From positions 1 through 64,000 of the forward strand of contig CAIKND010000106.1 of NCBI GenBank assembly GCA_903828675.1: a stretch of DNA of 64,000 bases, in the 5' to 3' direction. This DNA comes from an uncultured Acidobacteriaceae bacterium (GTDB taxonomy: Bacteria; Acidobacteriota; Terriglobia; Terriglobales; Acidobacteriaceae). Below the pieces are notes generated by a model. The model saw nothing but the letters and a program-made list of their open reading frames with translations. It did not search any database and was not told the origin of the DNA. A program made the translations under genes and the position numbers. Positions 8,615 through 64,000 of this stretch are shown piece by piece. The first letter of the stretch is position 1. Each line of letters begins with the position of its first letter.

Positions 8615-9364
8615 ATGAGTACGTTCCGTATCGCCGGCGTAATTCCCGCCCGGCTCAGTTCCACGCGCCTCAGCCGCAAGGTCCTGCGCTCCATTGCCGG
8701 CCGTCCCATGGTGGAGTGGGTGTGGCGCGCCGCCGCCTCCAGTGGCCTTATGGACCCCGTTGTCGTAGCCACCGACTCCGACGAAGTGGCCTCAGTCTGC
8801 CGTGAGCGAGGCATCCCCGTGGCGATGACTTCCCCATCCTGCCCCAGCGGGTCCGATCGTGTGCGCGAAGTCGCCCGCCAGATCGACGCCGACATCTATG
8901 TCAACATCCAGGGCGACGAGCCCACCCTGACCGCAGACTTTTTCCCGCCATTGCTCTCTCTCTTCAGCCGCCCCGAGGTTCAGGTCTCCACCCTCGCCGT
9001 CCGCTGTCAGCCCCATGAGTTCACAAACCCCAACGCCGTCAAAGTCGTCACCGCCCTCGACGGCCGCGCCCTCTACTTCTCCCGCGCCACCATCCCATTC
9101 GACCGAGATAACACCGGCTTCTCTGGCTACCGCAAGCACCTCGGCATCTACGCCTACCGCAAAGCTGCCCTTGAGCTCTTCGCCTCTCTCCCACCCTCGC
9201 CCTTGGAGAAACTCGAACGCCTCGAGCAACTCCGTCTCCTGGAAAACAACATCGCCCTCTACGTAGCCGAAGCCCCAAGAGACACTATCGGCGTCGACAC
9301 CGAAGAAGACCTCGCCCACGCCGAAGCCGCCCTCAAAGGTGCCGCAGGCCCAGCCATCGCATAG
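8615..9364 (+). CDS. kdsB: 3-deoxy-manno-octulosonate cytidylyltransferase
   Basis: The product transfers CMP from CTP to Kdo, activating it for lipid A inner-core assembly in the cytoplasm. The 249 residues match the family length. The N-terminal nucleotide-binding motif is IPARLSSTRLSRK, followed by the family motifs RPMVEWVW, VATDSDEV, CPSGSDRV, NIQGDEP and the late GVDTEEDL. An ATG at 8615 gives a full-length N-terminus, with no strong Shine-Dalgarno visible. It implies a Gram-negative envelope with lipopolysaccharide. No other Kdo gene is adjacent. Confidence 0.96.
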   Translation: MSTFRIAGVIPARLSSTRLSRKVLRSIAGRPMVEWVWRAAASSGLMDPVVVATDSDEVASVCRERGIPVAMTSPSCPSGSDRVREVARQIDADIYVNIQGDEPTLTADFFPPLLSLFSRPEVQVSTLAVRCQPHEFTNPNAVKVVTALDGRALYFSRATIPFDRDNTGFSGYRKHLGIYAYRKAALELFASLPPSPLEKLERLEQLRLLENNIALYVAEAPRDTIGVDTEEDLAHAEAALKGAAGPAIA

Positions 9365-9435
9365 CGTCCAATAAACCCATAAATTCCGAATTCCCCGCAA
9401 GAACTGGATAGCGCCCCGCCCCCCAATGAGCGACC

Positions 9436-10506
9436 ATGGTTCTCGTGAGCATCAACCACCCCATCGATCCGGAAGCCGCCTGGCAGCAACTCTTCGCCCG
9501 CGACCCTGCCGCCACCTTCTTCTACGCGGTCGCTACCACCGGCGTCTTCTGCCGCCCCACCTGCGCCAGCCGCCGCCCCTTGCGCGCCAACGTCCGATTC
9601 TTTCCAACCGCCCAGGCTGCCCAGGCCGCCGGCTTCCGCCCCTGCAAGCGCTGCCGCCCCACCACCGCGCAAATCAACCCGCTCGATAAAATCCGCAGCT
9701 ACATTGAAGACAATTTCGACCGCCCCGTCCCGCTCGCCGAACTCGGCCGCATCGCCGGCATGAGCCCTTTCACCGTGCAGCGCCTCTTCAAGCGAGAGAT
9801 GGGCGCAAGCCCGCTTGCCTACCAGCGCGCGCTCCGTGCCAGTTCCCTGCGCGGCGCGCTCAAACAAGGAGATTCCGTGACCAAGGCAATCTATGAAGCA
9901 GGCTTCGGCTCCTCCAGCCGCGCCTATGAGGGTGCGCCGCTCGGCATGACGCCTGCGCGCTTCGCTCAGGGAGGCCGCGGCGAGCAGATCGCTTTCACCA
10001 CTGCGCGCTCCCCCTTCGGCTGGCTCGTCGTTGGCTCCACCCATCGCGGCCTCTGCTGGCTTGCCCTCGGCGCCACCTCTGCCGAAGCCGAGGCCAGCCT
10101 CCGCGAAGAGTTTCCTCTCGCTACCCTCTATGGCGATCCATCCCTCTCGAAACTTGTTGACGCCGCCGTTGCCATCGTCAGCGGCAGCGCGCAGCCGCCC
10201 ACCGAACTTTCGCTCGACCTGCGCGGTACAGCCTTCCAACTGCGCGTCTGGCAGGCTCTCCGCCAGATTCCCCGCGGCCAGACCCGCACCTACAGCCAAC
10301 TCGCCCGCGAGATGGGCATTCCCCGATCCACCCGCGCCGTGGCCCGCGCCTGCGCCACCAACCGCGTCTCCCTTTTCGTCCCCTGCCATCGCGTCGTTGG
10401 CGTCACCGGCTCGCTCACCGGATACCGCTGGGGCGTCGAGCGCAAACGCAAGCTCCTTGAAGCGGAAGGCGCAGCCAATGGAACGCACATCCCCCGGTCT
10501 GCGTAG
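9436..10506 (+). CDS. ada: Ada-type regulator / O6-methylguanine-DNA methyltransferase
   Basis: The 356-residue protein has the full Ada architecture. An N-terminal zinc domain carries Cys39, Cys43, Cys70 and Cys73 (CRPTC and CKRC); Cys39 is the likely methylphosphotriester acceptor. An AraC-type helix-turn-helix follows (about 85-185, PLAELGRIAGMSPFTVQRLF). The C-terminal alkyltransferase domain has the PCHRVVG motif with active-site Cys317 and a preceding RAVARACATNR segment. In the family, methylated Ada activates genes of the adaptive response to alkylation damage. It sits 71 nt after kdsB and 45 nt before the zinc-ribbon gene, so readthrough is possible. No Ada operator was identified. 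Confidence 0.96.
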   Translation: MVLVSINHPIDPEAAWQQLFARDPAATFFYAVATTGVFCRPTCASRRPLRANVRFFPTAQAAQAAGFRPCKRCRPTTAQINPLDKIRSYIEDNFDRPVPLAELGRIAGMSPFTVQRLFKREMGASPLAYQRALRASSLRGALKQGDSVTKAIYEAGFGSSSRAYEGAPLGMTPARFAQGGRGEQIAFTTARSPFGWLVVGSTHRGLCWLALGATSAEAEASLREEFPLATLYGDPSLSKLVDAAVAIVSGSAQPPTELSLDLRGTAFQLRVWQALRQIPRGQTRTYSQLAREMGIPRSTRAVARACATNRVSLFVPCHRVVGVTGSLTGYRWGVERKRKLLEAEGAANGTHIPRSA

Positions 10507-51646: not shown

Positions 51647-54229
51647 CTACTGCAATTCAGCGTTCGGCTGCGCGGCGTTGGCGTCGATTGTCAACGAGCC
51701 ACTGCTGAGGGCGGAGCTTTTGACGGTCAGGTTGATGGGGCCAGCCTGTCGCGACGCGCGAATCACGACTTGCGCGCGCCCCTGGTAGAGCTTGCGTCGA
51801 TCGCTGGAATAGGAATCAGGATCCTGCCCGTCTCCGTTGCCCACGGCAGCAATCACACCAGGACCGCTGATCTCGAACTGGACCTCCTGACTCGCGTGCT
51901 GATCGGGCTGGCCGTGCGCATCCACGGCCTCGACGGTGACGAACGAAAGGTCCTCGCCGTCCGCCTGGAGCACTGTTCGATCCGCCGTGACGCGTAGCCT
52001 GGCCGCTTCTGCCGCCGTTGTAAGCACGCTCACCGCAACCACGCGATCACCGCGCAGGCCCACTGCCTTCAGCGTGCCTGGTGCATAGGGCACGGAGAAC
52101 ACCGCCTTGAACTCCTGCTCGCGGCCAGTGGGTTTTTCACCAATGAGCTTGTCATTCAGGAAGAGCCGCACCTTTTCCGCTCCAGAGTAGACCTCCACTT
52201 CGAGTCCTTTACCTTCCTGTCCTGGCCAACTCCAACTGGGAAGGGTGGGATAAGTAGCCCACATGATCGCGATGATCTTTTTGCCTTCAGGGTCGGGCAA
52301 CCGCACGGTGGCATAAACTCGGTCGCCGCCGTTCCAGATGATGTCGCGATAGTAAGACTGCGGCTTGCGGAAGCCGGTGAGATCGAGATCGCCGCAGACA
52401 GCCGCGTGCCACGGGTAGGGATGAAAGAAGACTTCCATCATTGCCTTGGCGTTGGGATCGGAGTTGTTTTTGGCCAAGTCGGCCATGACGTCCTTCCCGT
52501 CAGCCATTCCAGCGAAGAGCTGGTCGACCATGGCGGTGTCCGACATCATACCCGACATCCCCTCGGCCATCTTTGCCTGCTGCGGAGTGCCGTATTGCCA
52601 GGCGCCAATGCCGGATTCGCCAAGGTAGTCCATCGCGGTCCAGGTAAGGTCGCCGAGAATATACGGATTGTCGTGCGAGACCTGCCACAGCGGAAAGGCC
52701 TTCGCCGGCCACGACTCGGTTGTGAGCATCATGCGCGCGGGTAACTGCTCGTGGTCCTTCTGATAGGTGGGAAGGATGTTGTAGTTGTAGCCGGTGATGT
52801 CGAGTTGCGAGAACACCGCCTGCGCGTTGGGCTTGGTCGTTGAGCCTGGAAACGCGAGAGTGAGCGGGCGCGTGCTGTCGAGCGCACGCACCTGGTCAGC
52901 AATCTGCTTGCCGAGCGCGGCGCCACGATCCACTTCGAGCTCGGGAATCTCATTTCCTATTCCCCAGATCACAATCGATGGATGATTGCGGTCTCTCAGC
53001 ACCATCGACGAAACATCCTGCTTCCACCACTCATCAAAGTCGCTGCCGTAATCGAACTTCACCTTGTGGGCCTTCCACACGTCGAACGGCTCATCGAGAA
53101 CCAGCAGGCCGAGGCGGTCGCATGCGTCCAAAAACGCAGACGACGGCGGATTGTGCGCCGTGCGCACCGCATTCATGCCCGCGGCTTTCAGCAGTTCTAC
53201 CCTGCGCTCTTCCGCGCGATCAAAGGCGGCAGCGCCGAGAGGCCCGTTATCGTGATGAACGCTGCCACCGGTCAGTTTGACGGGCTTGCCGTTGAGCAGC
53301 AGCCCTTTCTCTGCCGACCACGCAAGCGAGCGAATGCCGAACGGCGTGACTACCTGGTCAATAATCTTTCCGTCTTTGCGAACCGTGGAGACGGCGCGGT
53401 ACATTGTGGGCGACTCCGGCGACCAGAGCGCGGGATGCGAAACGGTGATCCCTTGCGCTGCGTCGTCTTCCTGGCCCGGCGCAACGCTCAACTTGGATTG
53501 CGAGCTGCCAATTTTGCGCCCGGTATTGTCGAGTAGCGCGGTCTCGATCGTCACCCCCGCAGTATCGGAGGACTCATTTGCCACCCTTGTGCGGATTGAG
53601 ACCTTGGCCAAGGTGCTGTTTGCTTCCGGAGCGGTAACAAAGACTCCCCAATGCGCCACGTGCGTGGTATTCGTGACCACGACGCGAACATGCCTGTAGA
53701 TGCCTGAGCCGCTGTACCAACGGCTGTTCGGCAGGGCCGAGTTATCCACGCGCACAGCGAGCACATTTGCGCCTGAAAAATCAAGTTCCGGGGTGAGGTC
53801 GAAGGTGAACGCCGTATAACCGTAAGGGTGCGCTCCCAACTTGTGCCCGTTTAGATACACGGTGGCATCGCGGTAGACCCCATCGAATTCAACGCTCACG
53901 CGCTTCCCTTTCCAATTGGCAGGGGCGTGGAATGTCTTGCGATACCAACCGATACCACCGGGGAAGAACCCTCCGCCAGCGCCGCTCGCGCTATCCTTGT
54001 CGGGCTTGTTCTCGATGCTCCAGTCGTGGGGTAGAACGACTGCGCGCCAGGACACATCGGAAAACGAAGGGGTCTCCGCTCCGCTCGGATCGCCGAGGAA
54101 GAACTTCCATCCGGCATCGGCCGCGAGCTGTTGCCTGGGTAAGTTGGTGTTGGCGGCGCGCATCGAGGCGGGCACAAAGCACGCCAGCGCGGCCGCGAGA
54201 ACGATCAGGGATCGAGACTGAAGCTTCAT
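51647..54229 (-). CDS. Exported GH2-family glycosidase (beta-galactosidase-like)
   Basis: The 860-residue protein has a signal peptide (LIVLAAALACFVPASMRA), a jelly-roll sugar-binding domain (about 35-200; VVLPHDWSIE, YRKTFHAP, DGVYRDATVYLNG), an Ig-like domain (about 205-305), and a TIM barrel (from about 310) with SVHHDNGPLG, RTAHNPPS, acid/base Glu in WGIGNEIPE (near 427) and the nucleophile Glu in LTTESWP (near 505). DUF4982-like and Ig-like domains end the protein. It probably hydrolyses beta-galactosides in the periplasm. The ATG overlaps the TetR stop (ATGA, 54226-54229), so it is coupled to that regulator. Confidence 0.93.
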   Translation of the reverse strand: MKLQSRSLIVLAAALACFVPASMRAANTNLPRQQLAADAGWKFFLGDPSGAETPSFSDVSWRAVVLPHDWSIENKPDKDSASGAGGGFFPGGIGWYRKTFHAPANWKGKRVSVEFDGVYRDATVYLNGHKLGAHPYGYTAFTFDLTPELDFSGANVLAVRVDNSALPNSRWYSGSGIYRHVRVVVTNTTHVAHWGVFVTAPEANSTLAKVSIRTRVANESSDTAGVTIETALLDNTGRKIGSSQSKLSVAPGQEDDAAQGITVSHPALWSPESPTMYRAVSTVRKDGKIIDQVVTPFGIRSLAWSAEKGLLLNGKPVKLTGGSVHHDNGPLGAAAFDRAEERRVELLKAAGMNAVRTAHNPPSSAFLDACDRLGLLVLDEPFDVWKAHKVKFDYGSDFDEWWKQDVSSMVLRDRNHPSIVIWGIGNEIPELEVDRGAALGKQIADQVRALDSTRPLTLAFPGSTTKPNAQAVFSQLDITGYNYNILPTYQKDHEQLPARMMLTTESWPAKAFPLWQVSHDNPYILGDLTWTAMDYLGESGIGAWQYGTPQQAKMAEGMSGMMSDTAMVDQLFAGMADGKDVMADLAKNNSDPNAKAMMEVFFHPYPWHAAVCGDLDLTGFRKPQSYYRDIIWNGGDRVYATVRLPDPEGKKIIAIMWATYPTLPSWSWPGQEGKGLEVEVYSGAEKVRLFLNDKLIGEKPTGREQEFKAVFSVPYAPGTLKAVGLRGDRVVAVSVLTTAAEAARLRVTADRTVLQADGEDLSFVTVEAVDAHGQPDQHASQEVQFEISGPGVIAAVGNGDGQDPDSYSSDRRKLYQGRAQVVIRASRQAGPINLTVKSSALSSGSLTIDANAAQPNAELQ

Positions 54230-54951
54230 GAGGACCTCTTTCTGGATGGACTTTTGGGAGTTTTCTGTTTTTGGGGATGTGGGCGGGCCGGAGCTTCCGG
54301 AACTCGCAAGCCCAGCAGGAGCACGCGGATGGTCTCGCGGAACAAGCGATCGATGGGTTTTCCGTATTCCGCCTCGACCTTTTTCCCCAGGGAAGCGAGG
54401 CGGCGCTGGGCTCCGATCACAGCGTTGATAACGGCGTGCATCGTCAGGTCGGGGTCAAGATCGGGACGGAGTGAGCCTTCTGCGATGCCTTCGCGGATCA
54501 AATTGGTGAAAACCAGAAACCCTTCTGGGTTGATTTGCGATTCCAGGGTTATGAGCCGTTCGGCCGGCCAGTCGTGCGCATAGATCGCGTCAAATTGCGC
54601 CATGAACCGGACCTCCAACTGGTTGGTCGCCAGTTCATCGGCCATGAAGTCCAACAGGGCGGTTAGCCGGGCGAGAGCGCTGGGTGCAGCATCCACCCTC
54701 AGCTTCGCGCGGCGACTGGCCTCTTGCATCGACTCGCTCAGGAGCGCCCAGACGATGTCGTCCTTGTTGGCGAAATACTGATAAATCGTCGAAGGCTGGA
54801 CGCCGCTGGCCGAGGTGATCTCGGCCATGGTGACCCGATCGATTCCGCGCTCATCAAACAGTTTTCTGGCACCATCGAGGATCCGACGGTGTTGTCGCTC
54901 GCGGTGAGCATGGTAAAGGTTTGGCTGTTTATCTGTCGTCTTCCGAGTCAT
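54226..54951 (-). CDS. TetR-family transcriptional regulator
   Basis: The 241-residue protein has an N-terminal TetR HTH (about 15-65; RRILDGARKLFDERGIDRVTMAEI, GVQPSTIYQYFANKDDIVWAL). The rest is helical, with a basic Pro/Lys-rich tail (RPHPQKQKTPKSPSRKRSS). The stop overlaps the start of the GH2 gene. An 8-bp inverted repeat, AATTCGAA-N7-TTCGAATT, lies 33 nt upstream of the start and is the probable autoregulatory operator. Confidence 0.92.
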   Translation of the reverse strand: MTRKTTDKQPNLYHAHRERQHRRILDGARKLFDERGIDRVTMAEITSASGVQPSTIYQYFANKDDIVWALLSESMQEASRRAKLRVDAAPSALARLTALLDFMADELATNQLEVRFMAQFDAIYAHDWPAERLITLESQINPEGFLVFTNLIREGIAEGSLRPDLDPDLTMHAVINAVIGAQRRLASLGKKVEAEYGKPIDRLFRETIRVLLLGLRVPEAPARPHPQKQKTPKSPSRKRSS

Positions 54952-55578
54952 GCGTCGACGCTTCAGTTCGTAATGATAGATCGAATTCGAACTAGTATTT
55001 CGAATTTATACACGCAAACGACTGCTGAGGTCAAAAGAAATAAACCCCTGGATGTGGTAATTACAAGCCGGCCCCTGTTGAAAAGATCTGCCTACTTAGA
55101 GGGTGACGATTCGCCTGCGCCCTCGCCCTGCGCTACCGGGGGGCTGCGTTCGTCCTCGGCGGAGTACTTGGCCAGTCGGGAAACAGTCGCGGAAGTAGCA
55201 ATGGCCAAAGTGCTACCCAGGAGGTCTTTTAGAAAGCAGCTATAGGGCAGTGGAAGCACGAGAGGCGCAAGAGTTGGTCATACAGGGCCTATTGTGGAAG
55301 GAGTTGACTTCAGCACAAAAAACGGGAGAGAAAGAAGATGCCATCCGAGTAGATCATTGATTCTAATCTAAATATGGTAGGCACGACTGGATTAGTAACT
55401 AACTGCAAGATGTTTATTTTCAAAGGAATAATACATTGCCAGTCATACGTACCCCCAAATATACCCCCTATCAAGCAGGGCTTGGTGCTTTTTGTCCCAG
55501 ATCAGGCCCGAATCCCCTCCAGCGCGACGGTGTGCTCCAGGGGTACGAAATCTCCCGGCGCAGGTAGAGGAAATCCGG
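54952..55578. other. Intergenic region, start of the accessory island
   Basis: The 627 nt hold the TetR operator (54984-55006), an otherwise uneventful stretch that is more AT-rich than the core (55250-55450), and a pair of TACCCCC heptamers (55450-55456 and 55462-55468). No gene was supported. The change of gene content on its right suggests the island boundary lies here, but no duplicated attachment site was found. Confidence 0.4.
54984..55006. promoter_or_regulatory. Putative TetR operator
   Basis: AATTCGAA (54984-54991), 7-nt spacer CTAGTAT, TTCGAATT (54999-55006). The left half overlaps a second palindrome TCGAATTCGA (54981-54990). Position just upstream of the TetR start and symmetry fit a TetR-dimer site. 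Confidence 0.65.
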
Positions 55579-56271
55579 TTACCGGTTCGCAACTTCTGTC
55601 CATGACGGGTCGCGAGGGGCCGTGCTCTCGTCTGCTGTTCTCGCTCGTTCCAGCATCCATGAGTAGAGGTCTGGATAGTTCTTCTTGAGGTACTCTCTCC
55701 TCTTTCGGATTGCGTCGCCGGACAGATCCTCTGTAAGCGAACGCTCCGAGACGGCTTGATACAGCTCTGCGAGATGCTCATCATAGTGCTGGCCGGTTTT
55801 CAGCCGAACGAATTCCGACGCGACAATCAAAAAGAAACCGTAGAGATTTCCTTCCTTATGGCCGCGCTTCCCAAACAAGTCCAGCATCCCGCCAACCACC
55901 TTCGAGAACTCGGTGAGCTGCCGTGGGAGATCGCTGAAACTGGAGATGTATGGGAGCAGTACATCGGAATCCGGCCCGTGGAATACCTCCGATTCCAACT
56001 TCGAGCCAAGCTTCGCCGCATCGGCCACAAGCTTAGCCTCTTTTTCCAATAGTCCATCCTTTGATCGTCTCTTCCCGTTCTGGGTGGTCACCGCAGCATA
56101 GACCTTGAGCATTGAGTATAGGATTTTCTGATCCGGCCCACTGAGCTTCCGCAGCGGATTGGTGGCGGCAATGTGCCGGAAAGCCTGGGCTGTAGGGCCA
56201 ACGAGATCGACAACCATGGGGAATTGACCTCCTCCCAAACCGGACAAAAGTACGGTCAGGGTTTTGTCCAT
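55579..56271 (-). CDS. Hypothetical helical protein of the island
   Basis: The 230-residue protein has an N-terminal short hydrophobic stretch (TVLLSGLGGGQFPMVVDLVG), then mainly helices: NPLRKLSGPDQKILYSMLKVYAA, KEAKLVADAAKLGSKLESEV, SEFVRLKTGQHYDEHLAELYQAVSE. AGGAG precedes the ATG. No family or catalytic motif was recognised. It is divergent from the AlpA gene with only 56 nt between the starts. Confidence 0.65.
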   Translation of the reverse strand: MDKTLTVLLSGLGGGQFPMVVDLVGPTAQAFRHIAATNPLRKLSGPDQKILYSMLKVYAAVTTQNGKRRSKDGLLEKEAKLVADAAKLGSKLESEVFHGPDSDVLLPYISSFSDLPRQLTEFSKVVGGMLDLFGKRGHKEGNLYGFFLIVASEFVRLKTGQHYDEHLAELYQAVSERSLTEDLSGDAIRKRREYLKKNYPDLYSWMLERARTADESTAPRDPSWTEVANR

Positions 56272-56327: not shown

Positions 56328-56552
56328 ATGGCCAACATGATTCTCAGACTTCCGGCAGTGAAGACACGAACCGGACTCTCTCGTTCAACGATCTACCTCC
56401 GCGTGGCGGAAGGCAGGTTCCCGAAACCCATTTCCCTGGGTGCTCGCGCAGTTGGCTGGGTCGATGCCGAAGTGGAGGCATGGCTTGCAGGCCAGATTGA
56501 ACTGAGCCGCAGGACTCAGGGAGGGCGGCTGCTAGCGCCGGGGTCGCACTGA
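56328..56552 (+). CDS. AlpA-family excisionase/regulator
   Basis: ATG 56328 follows AAGGAG. The 74-residue protein is a single HTH: ILRLPAVKTRTGLSRSTIYLR, then AEGRFPKPISLGARAVGWVDAEVEAWLAGQI. 'SRSTIYLRVAEGRFPKPISLG' and 'WVDAEVEAWL' are diagnostic of AlpA/phage excisionase-like proteins, which regulate integration/excision or replication of genomic islands and phages. Its stop TGA overlaps the next ATG by one base. Confidence 0.92.
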   Translation: MANMILRLPAVKTRTGLSRSTIYLRVAEGRFPKPISLGARAVGWVDAEVEAWLAGQIELSRRTQGGRLLAPGSH

Positions 56553-56641
56553 TGATCGCCTCTATAGCTCCGGTGCTTCCGCCAGAAGTGTGCGCCGTCG
56601 CAGCCAGTGACTGGCGCTGGTACATGGGCGGCACACCATGA
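56552..56641 (+). CDS. 29-residue ORF overlapping both neighbours
   Basis: The ATG shares its A with the AlpA stop (TGATG, 56550-56554), and the TGA overlaps the start of the next gene (ATGA, 56638-56641). The product is small, begins MIASIAPVLPPEVCAVAASD and ends WRWYMGGTP. It has one Cys and three aromatic residues near the end. Overlap on both sides suggests a translated relay between AlpA and the replication-like gene; whether the peptide itself has a function is unknown. Confidence 0.55.
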   Translation: MIASIAPVLPPEVCAVAASDWRWYMGGTP

Positions 56642-57153
56642 CCGTAATGTGCGAACGTTTTTTTGGAATCCCGCAAGCGGTAGTGCGAGATGGCATGATC
56701 GAACGACTCAGCCCAGTTGCCGTGAAACTATACATTGCCCTCTGGCATGAATCCGAGCGTTACAGTACGAGAGAACTAAAACGGACAGTTACTCAACTGC
56801 AAAAACTTGTGGGAGGATCACGAAATTCCTACGCCAAAGCAAGACGCGAATTGTCGCAGGCCGGCCTATTGTCCGCAGACGCCTATGGGTCGGATGGCTT
56901 CATCTTCCATCTATTCAACCCGGAAACTGGAAAGCCTTGGCCTCTCAAACCAACGGAGAAGCCTGTTTATCAGCGGAAGGGAGCACCCGCCGTTGCAAGT
57001 TCCCAAGCTCCGGCCAGGTCTACGGAACCTCCACGAACACAAGACACTGGAACCGATTTCACCTTCGGCTTCAATGGCCCCCAATCCAATGCCTTTGCAC
57101 CAAGCGGCGAGCTGTGCCGCCAGTCATTGTCTTGGAGTGAAATCGGCAAGTAG
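56638..57153 (+). CDS. Replication-initiator-like winged-helix protein
   Basis: The 171-residue protein has an N-terminal winged-helix region (about 10-95; ERLSPVAVKLYIALWHESER, TRELKRTVTQLQKLVGGSRN, SYAKARRELSQAGLLSADA) with a wing strand FIFHLFNP, and a disordered Pro/Thr-rich C-terminal half. The order 'LSPVAVKLYIALWHESER...' resembles N-terminal winged helices of plasmid/phage replication initiators and DnaD-like proteins. Iteron-like repeats begin 12 nt after the stop, supporting that role. The start overlaps the 29-codon ORF. Confidence 0.65.
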   Translation: MTVMCERFFGIPQAVVRDGMIERLSPVAVKLYIALWHESERYSTRELKRTVTQLQKLVGGSRNSYAKARRELSQAGLLSADAYGSDGFIFHLFNPETGKPWPLKPTEKPVYQRKGAPAVASSQAPARSTEPPRTQDTGTDFTFGFNGPQSNAFAPSGELCRQSLSWSEIGK

Positions 57154-57165
57154 TGTGCTGCACCA

Positions 57166-57249
57166 TGCACAAATATTGTGCATCCCCACGCGCAGAATTT
57201 GCGCTCCCCATGTACAGATATTGCGCAGGACAGGCACATTTATTGCTTG
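57166..57249. repeat. Four phased iteron-like 17-bp repeats
   Basis: Starts are at 57166, 57189, 57211 and 57233 (spacing 23, 22, 22): TGCACAAATATTGTGCA, CGCGCAGAATTTGCGCT, TGTACAGATATTGCGCA and GGCACATTTATTGCTTG. The first is a 7-3-7 inverted repeat, the second is a 5-5-5 one, and the third and fourth are weaker. A spacing of about two helix turns puts all on one DNA face. They follow a replication-like gene, as iterons do; cooperative operators are the alternative. Confidence 0.75.
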
Positions 57250-57746
57250 CGGACTGCCTGCAACTCATTCAGAAATAGAAAGTTGTTGCGGTAACGTCCA
57301 TTCCTAAGTACATTCCTAATAAAGAAGAAGATTCCTAAAGAGCATTGACCGTCCATATCAGCCAGATGCACTCATTTGTCGTTCGAATCGTTTGAAGGAT
57401 CAATCTGGATGGAGGTTGTCAATGCTGGATCAGATGCTTCTTCCCGCAAGCGAGATTCCAAAACCGGCCTTAAAAAAGTCAATGTCGCCGTGACGCCGCC
57501 TTTTCTGGAACGGGTGCCGTATACACGAAGCCACGATTCGAGCACAAAAAATCTGGATATTTTTTGAAGAAATTTTTGCTGGTGCGCCGCGAAGAGCTTC
57601 CAAGAGCAATCTGAATCCGTTGAGGTACTCTCAATATCGGGAAGGGATGGCCATAGAGCTAGCAACGGATTCGCACTAATGGTGATCCTGATCCCTGGCT
57701 TGCTTGTTGCACCGATAGTGCTGATTCATCGGGGGGAGTGTAATCT
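57250..57746. other. AT-rich stretch with ATTCCTAA repeats, then non-coding
   Basis: ATTCCTAA occurs at 57300-57307, 57312-57319 and 57331-57338 in an A-rich context (AAAGAAGAAG), like the unwinding part of an origin. The rest holds short open frames of about 60 and 97 codons on either strand (57376-57665) without good ribosome-binding sites or recognisable sequence; I did not call them. No consensus DnaA box was found. Confidence 0.5.
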
Positions 57747-58508
57747 ATGGCGAGTCAATACGGTAAGCCTATGGAGGGGGAGCGACACACTCCCAAGTAT
57801 CCGCGCGATTACCCTGCATTGCCGTCCGGTTTGCAGCCCTTGCCGTTCTATCCGAACCTGAAGAGAGAGCTTCGATCAGTGACGGGCGCGCTGGTCCTGA
57901 CCTATCTTGAAATCTACCATCCGCCCTCGCAGGACGCATCTGGTGCCCTTCTCAGCGCGCCTGTGACCCTCCACCTGGATAAGATTTCAGAAGACCTACA
58001 GATCTCCCGCAGGACTCTGTTCACAGCCCTGTGTGTACTCGCAGCCCGGTGGGGAAGCGAAGAGGCTCGTGCGCGCGCAGCCCGCGCCGGCCGCGAGTTC
58101 CTCAATCCTGCACACACCATCAATGGGCGGACAAAGTTTTACTCGGTCACCGGCGCAATCGGCTATATCCCTCACACAATCGTCCAGCTTCGTCGGAACT
58201 TTTCGCTCATCGCAGCCATGCTCCAAAATGCCGGAATCACTTCGCTCGCTCAACAAGAGTTTGTGGGCATAGACCGTTTCAAGACTTTGGACGCCGCCGC
58301 CATTTCAGCGCCAACTGCGCACATTCCGGCACAAAAAGAATCCCCCTCGGAGATTCTGTTGCTGACATCCGTGTTTGCGGGGGATCGGCGGAGCACACGT
58401 TATCCGCGGCTGCGCGCGGCTGTGGGGGCTGGCCTACTCCCAGCGAGTGCGCTCAAGCCCCGTCGAAATGCTGGGAAACACTTGCCGGACAGTGCGGAGC
58501 GGGGATAA
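57747..58508 (+). CDS. Island protein with HTH-like region, unknown function
   Basis: The 253-residue protein follows GGGGAG. It has an N-terminal Pro-rich part, then ELRSVTGALVLTYLEIY and a helix-turn-helix-like stretch LHLDKISEDLQISRRTLFTAL, and a further basic helix RARAARAGREFLNPAHTINGR. The C-terminus is Pro/Ala-rich. It may bind DNA (a second replication or regulatory factor), but no family was recognised. Confidence 0.65.
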   Translation: MASQYGKPMEGERHTPKYPRDYPALPSGLQPLPFYPNLKRELRSVTGALVLTYLEIYHPPSQDASGALLSAPVTLHLDKISEDLQISRRTLFTALCVLAARWGSEEARARAARAGREFLNPAHTINGRTKFYSVTGAIGYIPHTIVQLRRNFSLIAAMLQNAGITSLAQQEFVGIDRFKTLDAAAISAPTAHIPAQKESPSEILLLTSVFAGDRRSTRYPRLRAAVGAGLLPASALKPRRNAGKHLPDSAERG

Positions 58509-58541: not shown

Positions 58542-59468
58542 TCACTCTTCCGGGGAGCTTTTCCGTAATGGCAGCCGGGACTGCCCCATCCGCTGAATCA
58601 AACCAGCCATCTTGATGACTGTTTCCAGGCTGATTGAGGGCATCTGGCCGCCCTCACCAAGGTAGTCAGCAAGATATTCCGCAGAGGGGGTCTCGATTCC
58701 CAGCCGGGTACACACAAGGTACGAGATGGATTCCGCCTCACACTCCTCCACTTGCCGATCCAACTTGCGCCGATCAGGCCAGTGTTTTTGATTTGGACTG
58801 CCGAGATGGCCGCAATAAAGGTGGCCAAGCTCATGGGCAAGGGTTGCGTATTGCTCCTCGCGGGATTGGTGGGAATTGAGCAACAACTCAAAGCGCACTG
58901 GAACGGTTTCGCGCTTCTCTTTGAAGGATGGGGGTTCCGGCAAACGGAACACGTCCTTGGTATTCGCTGGCTGGATTTGACCGGCGTGCTGAGAGCCGAA
59001 TTCGCGCTGGTGGATTCGAACGCCATCCCGCTTCGCATTCTCAATCGTTTTGTCGAGTTCGCCGTTCTCATTTCCGAGATGAATTGCGAATGGATTGATG
59101 ATGGACTCCGGAAGTTCCGGGGCACCGGACAATGTGCTGGTATCGCTGACATCGAAGACGAAGAGAACCGGACCCTTGGGTTGCAGGATTGTGATGGGCC
59201 TCGCGCAGGGATGAATTGTGCGCTTGTAACGCTCCAACCAGCGTTTGGGTGTGGCAACAAACCGCGCTCCGGGCATCTGGGTGTGAACCAGCATCGCATT
59301 GAATGGGGAGTACATCCTGAACCGGGCGATGAAGTGGAGCAGGTCTGCATACGCCGCCCGCGTCGTGAACTGTCCCGCTATCAGGAAGAGTTCGTCCAGA
59401 GCCTTTAGCGATTCGAGCGACTCGGAATGCGTTGGCTGATCGTCAAAAGGAATATCGTCGTTATCCAC
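58542..59468 (-). CDS. ArdC-like zinc metallopeptidase domain protein
   Basis: GTG 59468 with AGGAG upstream starts this 308-residue protein. The N-terminal half (about 35-200) resembles the ArdC/DUF1738 type DNA-associated domain (FRMYSPFNAMLVHTQMPGARFVATPKRWLER). The C-terminal part has the zinc-peptidase motif ATLAHELGHLYCGH followed by EECEAESISYLVCTRLG, the third ligand Glu. ArdC-type proteins protect incoming mobile DNA from restriction; IrrE/ImmA-like peptidases regulate phage and mobile-element repressors. Either role fits an island. It is the last gene of a minus-strand run. Confidence 0.85.
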   Translation of the reverse strand: MDNDDIPFDDQPTHSESLESLKALDELFLIAGQFTTRAAYADLLHFIARFRMYSPFNAMLVHTQMPGARFVATPKRWLERYKRTIHPCARPITILQPKGPVLFVFDVSDTSTLSGAPELPESIINPFAIHLGNENGELDKTIENAKRDGVRIHQREFGSQHAGQIQPANTKDVFRLPEPPSFKEKRETVPVRFELLLNSHQSREEQYATLAHELGHLYCGHLGSPNQKHWPDRRKLDRQVEECEAESISYLVCTRLGIETPSAEYLADYLGEGGQMPSISLETVIKMAGLIQRMGQSRLPLRKSSPEE

Positions 59469-59564: not shown

Positions 59565-60764
59565 TCATTGATGCGGCGGGTCAGCGAACGGGCCAATTGG
59601 CTGCGCCTCTTGCAGAATCCCGTGCGCAAGAAAGTAGTCCTGGTCGTTGTCTTTCTCGTCAGGAGGCATAGAGACTTTCTCTACGCTTGCGATTGTGGCC
59701 GCAATTACGAACGTATTGGACTGCCGATCCTCATTGTTCAAGATAGCCTTTGTTATGGCAGGGGCCGACAAGAGGGAGAAACGTAGATCCCATTTCATTG
59801 TTCTGCCAACGTCTTGGATCAGTACGAAGGAGTTGTCCTGCTCTCCAGATTTGCGCACGTCTTCCACAAGTCCAAAAGCAAGGATAGGCCGACCCTTTAT
59901 GAGTGCGTTTTCAAGCTCGATCGTGTACGGAGTAACGTAAGCGCCCTTGGAAGAGAAGGTATCTTCCCAATTGTCGTCAGCATTCCAAGAGTTCCCAACT
60001 CTCGCCACAATCGACCTTGCCTGTTGTTCCCTGGCCGCCGCTGCGGCTTCGACGGCTTCCGCCGCACGGCGCTTGACCTCGTGCGAATGATAAAACCACG
60101 CTGCGATCCCAGTGACTATGACGAGCACTGTTACAAGTAGAGGGGCATTCTTCCTTAGAATGCTGCCGCTGTGCAAGGCTAGTTCGGCTGGTATCTCGTC
60201 TTGGTGCTCAACCTCTTCCGTCTTCAGTTCGACTGGCTTCTCCTCCGCTGCCGGCGCTTCGCCCTTCCATTTGGCCGCCAGCGCATCAAGTGCGCCTTGG
60301 GGGTTCTGCTTGTCCCGCGCCGCCTTGCGAATGTCTGCCGGGCTCATCTCCTTGGCGTGGTAGTAGGTTCCGCTGAATGGTCCTGCGCCCTTGACTTGGG
60401 TTCGCGCCAAATCCTCGACGCCAGTCGGCTTGAACGTGGATGCAGCGGGTAGGTGGACATACGGATGCTCACCGCGGCCCGGGGCATCTGCCAAGCGTTG
60501 CAATTCTTCCCGGCTCTGACCCGGCGCGGCCGGTTCGCCAATCATGGCGGCTTGCGCGTAGTCTTCCTGCCGGTTGGCTCGGCGCTGAATCTCTTGCCCT
60601 ACCATCGCCTTGCGAACAGAACTCGTGACGGTTGCAGTCCTGCGGATTAGCGCATCAAGTTGCTCCGAGGTCGAATCCATCGGCGCGGCTGCCAGCACAA
60701 CAGCAGCCTTCCAAGTTGCAGGTGTATCAGGGATTTCCACGGGCTCATCTTCGTCAATGCTCAT
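59565..60764 (-). CDS. Single-pass membrane protein of the island
   Basis: The 399-residue protein starts behind GAGGAGCG. The N-terminal half (about 1-205) is hydrophilic and Ala/Glu-rich, a single transmembrane helix (about 208-228, APLLVTVLVIVTGIAAWFYH) follows, and a C-terminal domain (about 230-399) shows a beta pattern (PILAFGLVEDVRKSG, NSFVLIQDVG). No family was recognised. The same-strand neighbours are 57 nt upstream and about 100 nt downstream, suggesting one operon. Confidence 0.65.
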   Translation of the reverse strand: MSIDEDEPVEIPDTPATWKAAVVLAAAPMDSTSEQLDALIRRTATVTSSVRKAMVGQEIQRRANRQEDYAQAAMIGEPAAPGQSREELQRLADAPGRGEHPYVHLPAASTFKPTGVEDLARTQVKGAGPFSGTYYHAKEMSPADIRKAARDKQNPQGALDALAAKWKGEAPAAEEKPVELKTEEVEHQDEIPAELALHSGSILRKNAPLLVTVLVIVTGIAAWFYHSHEVKRRAAEAVEAAAAAREQQARSIVARVGNSWNADDNWEDTFSSKGAYVTPYTIELENALIKGRPILAFGLVEDVRKSGEQDNSFVLIQDVGRTMKWDLRFSLLSAPAITKAILNNEDRQSNTFVIAATIASVEKVSMPPDEKDNDQDYFLAHGILQEAQPIGPFADPPHQ

Positions 60765-60821: not shown

Positions 60822-61157
60822 CTATCGGTCAATTTCAACCGTCACAGGTTCATCCAACTCGACTGGGCCGTCTATGGCGACCTCGCCATTCACGAAAGAA
60901 GAACTCTCCAGTCTCTTGGCCGCAGCTCCTCGAAGTACGTTGCGGTGTTCCTCCGGCAACGCATACATTGCGTTCTTCACTTGTTCACTTCGCATCTGGT
61001 GAATTTCATGCCAAATGCCGCCCAACTCCAAAATGACCACGCCCAAAGCGGCTGCCTTGGCAATTGCACGAATGTTCATGCGGCAATAAACGACGAATTG
61101 TCGCAACCGCCGGTAAGCTGATTGCAATCTGTTCCCCTTCAATGAATCCGAGTCCAT
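60822..61157 (-). CDS. Small membrane protein of the island
   Basis: The 111-residue protein has GAGAG before the ATG at 61157. A hydrophobic helix (about 33-50, AAALGVVILELGGIWHEI) and an acidic C-terminus (FVNGEVAIDGPVELDEPVTVEID) are visible. An internal ATG at 61079 lacks a ribosome-binding site. No homologous family was recognised. It lies between the Sel1 gene and the 399-residue membrane protein, all on the minus strand. Confidence 0.6.
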   Translation of the reverse strand: MDSDSLKGNRLQSAYRRLRQFVVYCRMNIRAIAKAAALGVVILELGGIWHEIHQMRSEQVKNAMYALPEEHRNVLRGAAAKRLESSSFVNGEVAIDGPVELDEPVTVEIDR

Positions 61158-61190: not shown

Positions 61191-62756
61191 CTAAGGCTGA
61201 ATAGGATGAGCGGCAAACCACGCAGCCGCTCTTTGCTGCGCCGTGGATAGGTCGTCAGGAGTCAACTTCGCCGCCGCTTCATCGCGAGCCTTGGTGACCC
61301 TCTCCTGTTCTTTCCCCTTGGATCTTGCAGCGGCTAGGTTAAGCCAGAAGTACGCTTCTGAATAGTCCTGCTGCACGCCATGGCCCCCGTAATACAGTGA
61401 GCCAAGGCCGAATTGTGCTACCGCATTTCCTTTGTCGGCTGCCTTCCGATACCACGCTGCCGCCTGTTCATAATCCTGCGGAACACCGTGGCCATTTTCA
61501 TATAGATCGCCAAGGTTATTCTGGGCGATAGCGTAGCCTTGGTCGGCAGCTTTCCTAGTCCATTCAGCCACCTGGGCGTAATCCTGCGAGACACCACGAC
61601 CGTAGTAATACAATTCGCCAAGCATGGATTGCGCTCTGGCATCGCCTTGGTCAGCAGCTCTCCTAAACCACAGAACAGCCTGAGCGTAATCTTGGGGCAC
61701 ACCTCGGCCACGGTAATAGAGCGAACCAAGATGCTCCTGAGCCTCAGCAAAGCCCTGATTCGCGGCCTTGTTGTACCAAACCGCCGCTTCCGCAAAGTCC
61801 TGCTGGGCTCCTTGCCCTTTGGCGTAGGACAGACCGAGGTTGAATTGCGCTCCGGCGTTGCCCTGTTCAGCAGCCTTGCGATACCATGCCACCTTCTGAA
61901 CTGGGTCGGTTGGCATCGTCTGTTGGCCAGTATCTACAGTGGTTGCAGCGGCCGACTGCGGTGGTCTGGAATCGTCTCTTTGTGTGGCGCTCGGCGCGAC
62001 TTTTACCTCATGCTTTCCCGGCAGATGGAAGGGGATTTCGTAGCGCACGTTTCCAATCTCTGCCCTCACCAGCAGATTCTCACCGCCTTTCTGCTCTGGA
62101 AAGAACAGCCGCCCCATCGTATGCTGCCCTGGGTCCAATGTAGTTCGCTTAATCTCTTCGCCAACGAGATAGGCACCACGGCTCTGTGTTCTTCCGATGT
62201 TTGCTTGCGCCCGGTTGATGGCGTCGCTTTGAGCTTGAGGATTGGGGATCGTGACGCTGTAATCAGCCGTGGTCCCGTCGCTGTAGGTAGCGGTTCCCGT
62301 GGCCGTTGTTTCAGCGCCAAACGAGGACGCTCCAGCCGCAAGAGCGTTAGCGATGCGAGAGTGCCGCTCCATCGACTTTGCCATTTTGGCAGCTTCTGCG
62401 CGTTTCAATTCCAACACGCCTTTGTCCGTGGCTTTGAATAGGTGGATGCTTTCAGGGTTCACGTCGATTCGTCCTGCTCCCTCCGCTGGATTTCCCACAT
62501 AGACAGAAACCGCCAGCTTGCCGGAGTCAGGAATCAGGAAAACGATGAGAGATGCTTGGTTTGTAAACAGCCCCTTTTCTTCCAAGCCATTTTCGTATCT
62601 ATCGTCGCAACCTGGACCGTTCGGTTTCCAAGTTATGACCAATGGATCGACCGTTAATGCCGGTGCTGAGGCTGCTCCAGACGGCGTCTGCGCAAGAGAT
62701 TGAAAACCTGCGCAGAACAGGCAAGCTAGGGCAATCTGCTGATTTTTCCCTTTCAC
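61191..62756 (-). CDS. Exported Sel1-repeat protein of the island
   Basis: GTG 62756 with GGAGGAC upstream is the best start and gives 521 residues with a signal peptide (QQIALACLFCAGFQSLAQT); the frame continues upstream to 62951 without a site. The first half (about 25-285) is beta-rich with unknown fold. The second half has five Sel1 repeats and a partial sixth (about 290-490), each with AxWYRKAADQG-A-AQ-LG-LY--G-GV-QDY. Sel1 repeats form alpha-solenoids for protein binding. Its place in the minus-strand cluster suggests an accessory envelope role. Confidence 0.82.
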   Translation of the reverse strand: MKGKNQQIALACLFCAGFQSLAQTPSGAASAPALTVDPLVITWKPNGPGCDDRYENGLEEKGLFTNQASLIVFLIPDSGKLAVSVYVGNPAEGAGRIDVNPESIHLFKATDKGVLELKRAEAAKMAKSMERHSRIANALAAGASSFGAETTATGTATYSDGTTADYSVTIPNPQAQSDAINRAQANIGRTQSRGAYLVGEEIKRTTLDPGQHTMGRLFFPEQKGGENLLVRAEIGNVRYEIPFHLPGKHEVKVAPSATQRDDSRPPQSAAATTVDTGQQTMPTDPVQKVAWYRKAAEQGNAGAQFNLGLSYAKGQGAQQDFAEAAVWYNKAANQGFAEAQEHLGSLYYRGRGVPQDYAQAVLWFRRAADQGDARAQSMLGELYYYGRGVSQDYAQVAEWTRKAADQGYAIAQNNLGDLYENGHGVPQDYEQAAAWYRKAADKGNAVAQFGLGSLYYGGHGVQQDYSEAYFWLNLAAARSKGKEQERVTKARDEAAAKLTPDDLSTAQQRAAAWFAAHPIQP

Positions 62757-62987
62757 ATCGTCCTCCGAGAACTTTCGTAAATACACCAAAAGCGAAACGC
62801 ACGTCTTCCCTGATCCGGCATTTTGAGCTACCTCACTGGATTCTGGCAAACGGTTTGAGGCTACGGCTTGAGCGGAGTGAGGGGCAGGACTGACACGATG
62901 ATGGGGATCTGGGTGGGTGCAGAGAATGGCTTCCTGTCGAATTGCTCCCACAGATCACGCATAGAGGTTCAACGAACCCCCTCTCAA

Positions 62988-63041
62988 TGTAAGCCGCAGC
63001 TTACACGTAAGCCTTAGCATACAGCCATGCTGAAAGCATGG
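62988..63041. promoter_or_regulatory. Tandem inverted repeats before the XRE gene
   Basis: TGTAAGC-CGCA-GCTTACA (62988-63005) and GTAAGC-CTTA-GCATAC (63007-63022) share the GTAAGC half site with an 18-bp offset. A third, CCATGC-TGAAA-GCATGG (63025-63041), spans the ATG at 63038. This is the layout of a cooperative autoregulatory operator. Confidence 0.7.
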
Positions 63042-63253
63042 CAACGGACATTTGCGTGCGGATCGGCAGACGGATTCGCGTCCTGAGAACAGAGCGCGAG
63101 TGGACCCAGGCCATGCTGGCGGACCACGCCGAACTGACGCGGGAGCACTTGTCAGAGTTGGAAAACGGACACAAAGAAATGGGTGTCAGGGCGCTCGAAA
63201 AGATTGCCAACGCGCTCGACATAAATCTTCACAAATTCTTTGACGGGTTCTGA
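63038..63253 (+). CDS. Small XRE-family (Cro/C1) regulator of the island
   Basis: The 71-residue protein is a single HTH domain: VRIGRRIRVLRTEREWTQAML, ELTREHLSELENGHKEMGVRALEKI and a C-terminal INLHKFFDGF. Tandem inverted repeats overlap its start. It is divergent from the Sel1 gene and may repress the minus-strand cluster and itself. Confidence 0.9.
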   Translation: MATDICVRIGRRIRVLRTEREWTQAMLADHAELTREHLSELENGHKEMGVRALEKIANALDINLHKFFDGF

Positions 63254-63332: not shown

Positions 63333-63659
63333 TCATGCTGGTTGCCGGGTGCGCCGGAACCAGTATCCTGCCCATCCAAACAGCAACACGCTGATAACCA
63401 TGTCAATCGGCTGCCAGTGCTCCCGGTGCATCCTGACCGGCAGGACAGGGTTCAGCAGCAGAGCAACAGCCAGGAAAGCCCACATCCAGCCCCGTGGCCC
63501 CGCCTGATACATCCGCACCGCCCAATAGACCCCGCCCACCGTTGCAGCCGTCCTCAGCACCATGTAAAAGCCGTAGGGATGCTTCCCCTCGGCGGCAACC
63601 AGCAGGAATATTGCCACCAGCACGGTGAGCGCAACTTCCAAAACCCGTTTGTTGTCCAT
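63333..63659 (-). CDS. Small DUF6804-like membrane protein
   Basis: ATG 63659 with GGAGGCG upstream is chosen over an ATG at 63851 that adds 64 basic residues without coding character. The 108-residue protein has four hydrophobic segments (about 8-22, 30-47, 56-70 and 83-97) and the sequence GKHPYGFYMVLRTAATVGGVYWA, as seen in a family of small membrane proteins (DUF6804-like) of unknown function. Confidence 0.75.
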   Translation of the reverse strand: MDNKRVLEVALTVLVAIFLLVAAEGKHPYGFYMVLRTAATVGGVYWAVRMYQAGPRGWMWAFLAVALLLNPVLPVRMHREHWQPIDMVISVLLFGWAGYWFRRTRQPA

Positions 63660-64000
63660 GAAAGCGCCTCCGCTGAGATCATTATCACGGTACTGCCCAC
63701 CTTCTTTGCGTCCGGGCCGGCACATCTGCGCGACGCTCAACCATGCAACCGACCTGAGTCTTTTTGAGCCTTTGTGAGCTTTTTTCTGCCCTCGCAAGCC
63801 TCTTCGCAATGTGCCGCACATGGCCTTCTTAAAGGTACATGTGTGCGGCACTATAAGCCGCTATAAACAAATGGGATACACGAGTAAAACAGCCATTGTG
63901 CGTCTGCGCTTTATGTTCCACTACTGCGATACCCGGTGAAGACGACTGCAAAACAGCCTACCTCCAGGCGGTCATGGACCGTAAGAAAGCGCAGCCTGCG
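63660..64000. other. Right end of the window, no gene seen
   Basis: About 340 nt upstream of the small membrane protein gene. The extension of its frame toward 63851 is not supported. The last 140 nt have no supported frame; an incomplete gene beginning or ending past the edge cannot be excluded. Confidence 0.35.

Follow-up and report, generated by a model that had tools for sequence, protein, structure and literature searches.

The 64-kb window analysed here is the beginning of a 146-kb contig (CAIKND010000106.1) in the draft genome of an uncultured soil Acidobacteriaceae bacterium; a further 20 kb past the window end was also analysed, and below, G000 denotes this genome, other G numbers the genomes of relatives, and L numbers fetched loci. 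Towards the end of the window lies a compact module that consists of a gene for an AlpA-type regulator or excisionase-like protein (56328-56552, plus strand; PF05930, E 1.6e-20), a 29-codon open reading frame (ORF; 56552-56641, plus strand) that overlaps both the AlpA stop codon and the start of the next gene, a gene for a short (171 aa) winged-helix protein that we denote Rep1, a putative replication initiator (56638-57153, plus strand), four phased repeats, and an AT-rich run with three copies of ATTCCTAA. An earlier, sequence-only reading of this DNA had proposed that these five elements jointly form the origin module of an integrated element, possibly of a family not described before, and it turned out to be largely right: each of the five is present, an AlpA/HTH_17-Rep1-repeat order was found at six Rep1 loci, this one included, the repeats are conserved in relatives, and the weak matches of Rep1 point to initiator-like proteins and do not place it in a non-replication family.

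The repeats (hereinafter iterons) start immediately downstream of Rep1 and follow each other in steps of 23, 22 and 22 bp. The first two (57167-57181 and 57190-57204) are palindromic, with 6/7 positions paired, the third (57212-57226) is an imperfect palindrome with 3 paired positions, and the fourth (57234-57248, core at 57236) is a half-site. Loose scans for single palindromic sites gave weak results (7 matches versus 3.4 expected, and 4 versus 1.2); the phased array, in contrast, outscores 200/200 and, in a second test, 100/100 dinucleotide shuffles, and ranks first among 558 overlapping tiles that span 84 kb. From the start of the fourth core, it is exactly 64 bp to the first ATTCCTAA copy (57300-57338, with copies starting at 57300, 57312 and 57331), and these three repeats, a putative DNA unwinding element (DUE), fall in the least stable 45-bp window nearby. 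When the region was shuffled, a word present in three copies within 45 bp appeared in 6/500 cases for 6-mers and in 1/500 for 7-mers, a test that is informative for the window; in G360 and G582 the iterons themselves can satisfy it.

Rep1 is sparsely distributed: with the genome under study included, matches were detected in 5/99 near relatives, 8/399 genomes of the class and 18/398 genomes of the family. Seven matches are strong (E below 1e-20; G000, G003, G056, G020, G582, G471 and G360), and G020 was left out of the counts below because its Rep1 is interrupted by other sequence on a 4.7-kb contig. At all six readable loci, a gene for AlpA or an HTH_17 protein, each above the Pfam cut-off, lies upstream of Rep1, and a tyrosine integrase is encoded in the same region or island. 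The integrase adjoins a tRNA gene in four of the six cases (Val twice, Glu and Leu once each), with attachment (att) repeats demonstrated only at the two Val sites; for G056 and G360, no tRNA gene was found in the fetched DNA. The order shared by the six loci is AlpA/HTH_17, Rep1, three or four phased repeats, 64 bp, and three copies of a short word, which is ATTCCTA at five loci and ACTTGA in G360, where ATTCCTA is absent.

An initial pattern built on ATTCCTAA had gaps that were too tight and matched only the genome under study (1/398); the loosened pattern of three ATTCCTA copies matched 4/398 family genomes, in all of them directly 3' of Rep1, compared with 0/398 for the reversed control. 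Rep1 matches of any strength occur in 18 family genomes, these four among them, and a fifth such origin is present in G003, which is outside the 398-genome sample. The pattern was derived from these very loci, and therefore its informative part is that nothing else in the 398 genomes matches it. Three matches in viral contigs were taken for chance occurrences given that the DNA involved has 29-30% GC.

In 6/6 loci, exactly 64 bp separate the start of the last core from that of the first AT-rich copy. The last iteron was called by eye (in G000 and G003, only a half-site is present), which could mislead; hence the origins were also aligned gap-free, anchored on the first AT-rich repeat. In this alignment, 12 upstream columns are invariant in all six origins, including CA at -63/-62 and TGC at -56 to -54. 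Furthermore, at each locus, the three repeats occupy the 45-bp stretch of lowest stability within a 600-bp region or come close to it (ranks 0, 4, 5, 7, 16 and 16 of 555).

The signal extends in part to more distant homologs. Among the 24 Rep1-related loci, 21 were included in a shuffle test (L027, L028 and L033 were left out), and the arrays beat all 100 shuffles in eight of these; the remaining 13 include all five loci with frames longer than 400 aa. In L037, the array is located inside the gene frame. Of five weaker Rep1 homologs that were scanned, three (L024, L038 and L040) carry a different second element, GTCTAGGTTCTT, at 17 bp from the last core, preceded by three to four phased palindromes, with the last site in L024 called by eye.

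Weak profile and fold matches point to a replication initiator as the predicted identity of Rep1. Pfam HTH_36 (PF13730) was matched by two of the seven strong members (best E 6.7e-5), and Rep1 itself matches O-like and replication-initiation families of PHROG at 3e-5 to 8e-5, one of these replication-initiation families being matched by 5/7 members and another by 4/7. The order of helices and strands in the AlphaFold model is that of a winged helix, at low confidence. In the PDB, Foldseek places chains of RepA_N plasmid initiators in all of its first eight ranks (top matches, 4pt7, 5kbj and 4pta), and RepA_N chains, to which 4pql also belongs, are likewise ranked first by VIA (Z 9.0, 8.4, 8.3 and 7.8), above general winged helices; the first match in a viral structure library is a RepA-like initiator (E 6.2e-3). 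The RepA_N family proper, PF06970, is absent among the matches of the seven members up to E 1, a PDB sequence search with Rep1 gave nothing below E 0.26, and no Rep1 relatives were found in the viral contigs, plasmids or phages searched. The tail of Rep1 is short, with very low model confidence; it contains an FxFGxN stretch in four of the six members (in G056, the second F is replaced by Y) and none in G582 and G471.

The module sits inside an island of about 11.4 kb (55375 to 66808 of the contig). Its left end, attL (55375-55393), is a 19-bp copy of the 3' end of tRNA-Val(GAC), delineated by repeat comparison and from unoccupied tRNA loci, and its right end, attR (contig 66790-66808), consists of the last 19 bp of the tRNA-Val(GAC) gene itself (contig 66790-66866), both past the window end. 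A 405-aa tyrosine integrase, which we label P4-type, with Pfam arm-binding, central and catalytic domains is encoded at 65384-66601 of the contig. As the sequence-only reading stated for the 64-kb window, no integrase-family match was found there; the integrase of the element begins 1.4 kb beyond the window end. A TACCCCC-N5-TACCCCC pair, a candidate arm site of the integrase, is present near both island ends (55450-55468 and contig 66657-66675) and in the related island described below. In 15 of the 29 loci fetched from relatives, the tRNA gene adjoins pgsA, and 12 of these 15, one of which ends at the tRNA with its contig, have no integrase match; the other three have one. In 4/6 unoccupied loci readable with an anchor, the repeat is preceded by AAATATGG, the same as at attL in the window.

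A sister island occupies tRNA-Val(TAC) in G003, with its own 20-bp repeat, an integrase 67% identical to that of the window island and an almost identical gene order, apart from two exchanged cargo genes; there is no match in the G003 island for the metallopeptidase and the 253-aa gene described below or for 60822-61157. Between 63.87 and 65.47 kb, 12/16 blocks of 100 bp are 90-97% identical to the G003 island and the remaining four are 76-86% identical, whereas the integrase DNA at 65469-66068 is only 53-82% identical and the chromosomal pgsA proteins 72%, a disparity that suggests recent exchange of island DNA between species. The second AlpA gene of the island, beside the integrase (contig 65064-65294; L002:1064-1294), encodes a protein identical to the G003 island copy, with 94.8% identical DNA. 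In another relative, G011, whose genome contains no Rep1, an integrase with 94.6% identity adjoins the same tRNA, together with other cargo. Given the integrase, the att repeat at the tRNA-Val 3' end, the sister island and the integrase-free tRNA loci in relatives, the conclusion that the island is a mobile element integrated site-specifically at tRNA-Val(GAC) is well supported.

The 29-codon ORF is the component of the module for which the sequence-only reading needs revision: it is present, and it is best read as the probable N-terminal relic of a Prim-Pol displaced by Rep1 and the origin rather than as a part of the module. In G010, a 93% identical AlpA is directly followed by a Prim-Pol gene (PF09250, E 5.6e-47, plus PriCT_1), and the N-terminus of this Prim-Pol aligns gap-free with 21 residues of the 29-codon ORF, a result not equalled in 2000 shuffles; the alignment does not extend to the last eight residues. 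Another AlpA-Prim-Pol locus, in G036, gave a higher score against the ORF (59; 0/500 shuffles), and in G003 AlpA abuts Rep1, with no micro-ORF between them. Prim-Pol homologs were detected in 26/99 relatives, which suggests that there are many Prim-Pol elements in the group, and 20 loci were fetched (L088-L107). Among the 15 of these that were examined with tblastn, AlpA is located directly upstream of Prim-Pol in L088 and L089 and further away in L099, and none was found in the other 12; micro-ORF likeness in the top 1-2% of shuffles was observed also in three AlpA-less loci (L091, L095 and L098) and was not in the other ten. The genome under study has no match to the G010 Prim-Pol, and apart from the probable relic, no primase-replicase gene was found in the island. 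Because two related loci have Prim-Pol in this position, it seems that replication modules are exchanged behind AlpA. As for the content of related islands, the G010 island on contig C76 (L046) encodes AlpA, Prim-Pol, a DUF3631 protein, a type I restriction subunit, a RES-domain protein and two proteins of the OMP-decarboxylase family, and a DNA methylase with a partner gene, perhaps restriction-type cargo, is found near the Rep1-integrase unit of G056 (L009:2542-5525).

Taken together, the conservation at six loci, the least-stable three-copy repeats, the invariant 64 bp and the initiator-like fold matches lead us to conclude that the module is, with high probability, the rep-oriV of a satellite-like or integrative mobilizable element (IME)-like replicating element of about 11.4 kb that is integrated in tRNA-Val(GAC). 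Starting from the computed island borders, gene order, conservation, phasing, 64-bp spacing and instability minimum, we infer a succession of steps that would include binding by Rep1, melting, helicase loading, excision and replication. AlpA, together with the AlpA copy beside the integrase, would trigger integrase-mediated excision and drive the AlpA-Rep1 operon. Dimers of Rep1 would occupy the palindromic iterons, which, being spaced by two helical turns, lie on the same face of the DNA, and the resulting complex, six turns away from the AT-rich three-repeat element, would melt it and capture one strand in a sequence-specific manner. Host DnaB and DnaG would then be loaded, possibly via the FxFGxN stretch in the Rep1 tail, and the excised circle would replicate, perhaps only with a helper. 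This scheme is modelled on work on the plasmid initiators TrfA and RepE, which contact the iterons and, simultaneously, a single strand of the unwinding element and require all of its repeats and exact spacing (PMC4081077).

Several observations weigh against this interpretation. With respect to the protein, the HTH_36 score of Rep1 is 14.1 bits, below the cut-off of 25; the mean predicted local distance difference test (pLDDT) value of the model is 47.8, with 46-72 in the blocks of the winged-helix core; the best Foldseek E value is 7.5e-3; a primosomal DnaB chain ties at VIA Z 8.3, and Z values of 7-8 are common for unrelated models; and Pfam detects no primase, helicase or loader domain in Rep1. 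With respect to the origin, the iteron arrays of G003 and G056 taken alone fail to beat shuffles, and among the five origins scanned, a DnaA box within one mismatch is absent from the window origin as well as from those of G003, G582 and G471, with one found in G056. The random-offset control for the anchored alignment (mean of 0.14 invariant columns; 0/5000 trials reach 12) breaks ancestry too, and therefore speaks for an indel-free register of the six origins rather than for function itself; the absence of indels is telling because the 51-bp spacer is only 31-49% identical among the five ATTCCTA origins. With respect to the element, the left flank of the window island (53901-55374) matched 0/30 pgsA loci and no empty site with both flanks was found, no packaging gene was detected in the Pfam (13) and PHROG (8) scans of island proteins, and no relaxase was seen there either, no relaxase search having covered the whole window.

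The alternative that fares best overlaps with the reading of the module as a rep-oriV, so that the two are not mutually exclusive: the origin could be a former one, within a decayed island that no longer excises or replicates. The probable relic of the Prim-Pol start and the half-site in place of a fourth full iteron fit such a scenario; the integrase, both AlpA genes and Rep1 are all open frames, however, both att repeats are present, and the 12/16 blocks that are 90-97% identical to the island of another species suggest recent exchange, so that we regard decay as unlikely. Less probable still, and by a clear step, is that Rep1 is a transcriptional regulator, with the palindromes and AT-rich repeats functioning as operators and promoter. 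Winged-helix proteins as well as palindromes of 15 bp are typical of regulators, Pfam HTH_Crp_2 matches 2/7 Rep1 members, and MarR, ArsR and CRP folds come next in the fold list of Rep1. Nevertheless, all six loci have the array on the 3' side of Rep1; in G003 the gene that follows (9070-10335, plus strand) converges on Rep1, which is on the minus strand, so that no promoter for it is needed there; and it would be unusual for an operator to combine a three-copy element, a 64-bp ruler and an instability minimum.

Iteron arrays adjoining a gene for a DNA-binding protein are also known from centromeres. A partition role, with Rep1 as a winged-helix protein that binds the iterons as a parS-like centromere, is nonetheless the most improbable possibility of all, given that its signs, namely the segregation protein AspA (5k5q) at rank 22 of the Foldseek list and a ribbon-helix-helix protein (contig 64364-64783; L002:364-783) whose C-terminal part matches PHROG families named Arc-like repressor and, over about 43 residues, two named 'partition protein ATPase' (1.2e-6 and 8.8e-6), are offset by the restriction of the latter matches to the DNA-binding fold, by the lack of an ATPase or TubZ domain in the Pfam scan of 13 island proteins, and by the fixed-distance unstable element, which a partition site leaves unexplained.

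In the island, the gene upstream of AlpA (55579-56271, minus strand) is conserved, and its homologs adjoin AlpA in the related islands of G003 and G010. Downstream of the AT-rich repeats, a stretch of some 400 bp up to the next gene (57339-57746) has no assignable feature; part of it (57445-57555) resembles G010 DNA that is far from the G010 copy of that gene. The latter (57747-58508, plus strand) encodes a 253-aa protein without a family that is 85-86% identical to the product of a gene in the G010 Prim-Pol island and has no relative in viral contigs. The sequence-only reading had listed it for structure prediction; a role as a second initiator was not supported, and the gene could not be linked to replication: there is no useful family match, the model has a pLDDT of 39, the hhalign probability against Rep1 is 0.7%, and no array adjoins the gene. 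The remaining genes include those for a zincin metallopeptidase identified with Pfam and PHROG (IrrE/M78, MPTase-PolyVal-like; 58542-59468, minus strand), a conserved cargo protein (59565-60764, minus strand), a Sel1-repeat protein (61191-62951, minus strand) and an XRE-type regulator (63038-63253, plus strand), the last three with homologs in G003, and a DUF6804 protein (63333-63851, minus strand) with a partial homolog there; the metallopeptidase, the Sel1-repeat protein and the DUF6804 protein are likewise considered cargo. The only match in the defence library, that of PADLOC model RT_III-A to residues 76-282 of the metallopeptidase, was judged to be domain overlap.

Beyond the individual island, the relatives of the module are located beside other integration genes, so that it apparently spreads as a prefabricated unit. 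We see an even chance that these loci represent a class of portable origins in acidobacterial islands, characterized by a small, nearly single-domain initiator (136-213 aa) and a fixed six-turn (64-bp) ruler between the iterons and a three-repeat unwinding element; in this class, the iteron words would vary by locus and the unwinding word in one locus while the ruler stays constant, whole rep-ori cassettes would replace Prim-Pol cassettes behind AlpA, and a second branch would use 17 bp to GTCTAGGTTCTT. A description of such a replication module or of such islands in Acidobacteriota was not among the literature matches listed (titles and abstract openings, with few subscription journals covered). 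The six aligned origins are a natural series, with the spacing fixed and the words varying, that makes the question of the iteron-to-DUE distance testable. The presence of interchangeable Rep or Prim-Pol cassettes in the AlpA slot illustrates how satellites may change their type of replication. Acidobacteriota have few genetic tools, and the minimal rep-ori could serve as a vector backbone for these bacteria. Rep1 is also shorter than the initiator protein O of phage lambda.

Several known systems resemble the module to different degrees. The closest in layout is S004-rep-oriV of Salmonella genomic island 1 (SGI1), which consists of an HTH_17 gene, rep, four 17-bp iterons and an AT-rich stretch with three 8-bp repeats (PMC7433901). 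The HTH_17/AlpA-rep-oriV order and the location in an integrated island are common to both, and the replacement of rep-oriV in some SGI1 variants by a replicase with PriCT_1 (PMC7433901) is comparable to the exchange of Prim-Pol and Rep1 proposed here. By contrast, the SGI1 Rep contains a RepA_C domain and SGI1 encodes tra subunits and depends on IncC plasmids (PMC7433901), whereas neither RepA_C nor tra was matched by Pfam in the 13 island proteins; SGI1 is inserted at trmE (PMC8409611), unlike the present island at tRNA-Val; and the SGI1 iterons are GC-rich direct repeats accompanied by a putative DnaA box (PMC7433901). Replication of SGI1 and of the Vibrio phage-inducible chromosomal island-like elements (PLE) requires a helper plasmid or phage.

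The RepA_N initiators, such as PLE RepA and that of plasmid pSK41, may share with Rep1 the winged-helix N-terminal fold suggested by its top PDB matches, and the resemblance extends to semi-palindromic iterons that converge on an A tract and, for PLE, to the satellite lifestyle (PMC7145576, PMC5703833). The differences are that Rep1 has no PF06970 match, that a short, apparently disordered tail takes the place of the C-terminal domain, and that in pSK41 the iterons lie inside rep. The lambda O-ori system, pPR9 Rep and HTH_36 proteins resemble the module with respect to the O-like PHROG matches of Rep1 and the four iterons beside an AT-rich element (PMC3349717, PMC5703833); here, however, the origin is 3' of the gene, and the AT-rich part consists of three ordered repeats at a fixed distance.

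The phage-inducible chromosomal islands (PICIs) of Gram-negative bacteria, P4-like satellites and phage-inducible chromosomal minimalist islands (PICMIs) likewise combine an integrase, AlpA, a small island and an iteron origin with an AT-rich melting site (PMC6092414, PMC10803314, PMC4936722), and two of the related loci described here carry Prim-Pol behind AlpA. Unlike in these elements, neither a primase nor a packaging gene was found in the present island, and the AT-rich part is accompanied by a single set of iterons rather than flanked by two sets as in E. coli PICIs. What sets the acidobacterial module apart is a small putative initiator without the defining Pfam matches of these families, whereas an integrated element with an iteron replicon, laid out like that of SGI1, belongs to a known type.

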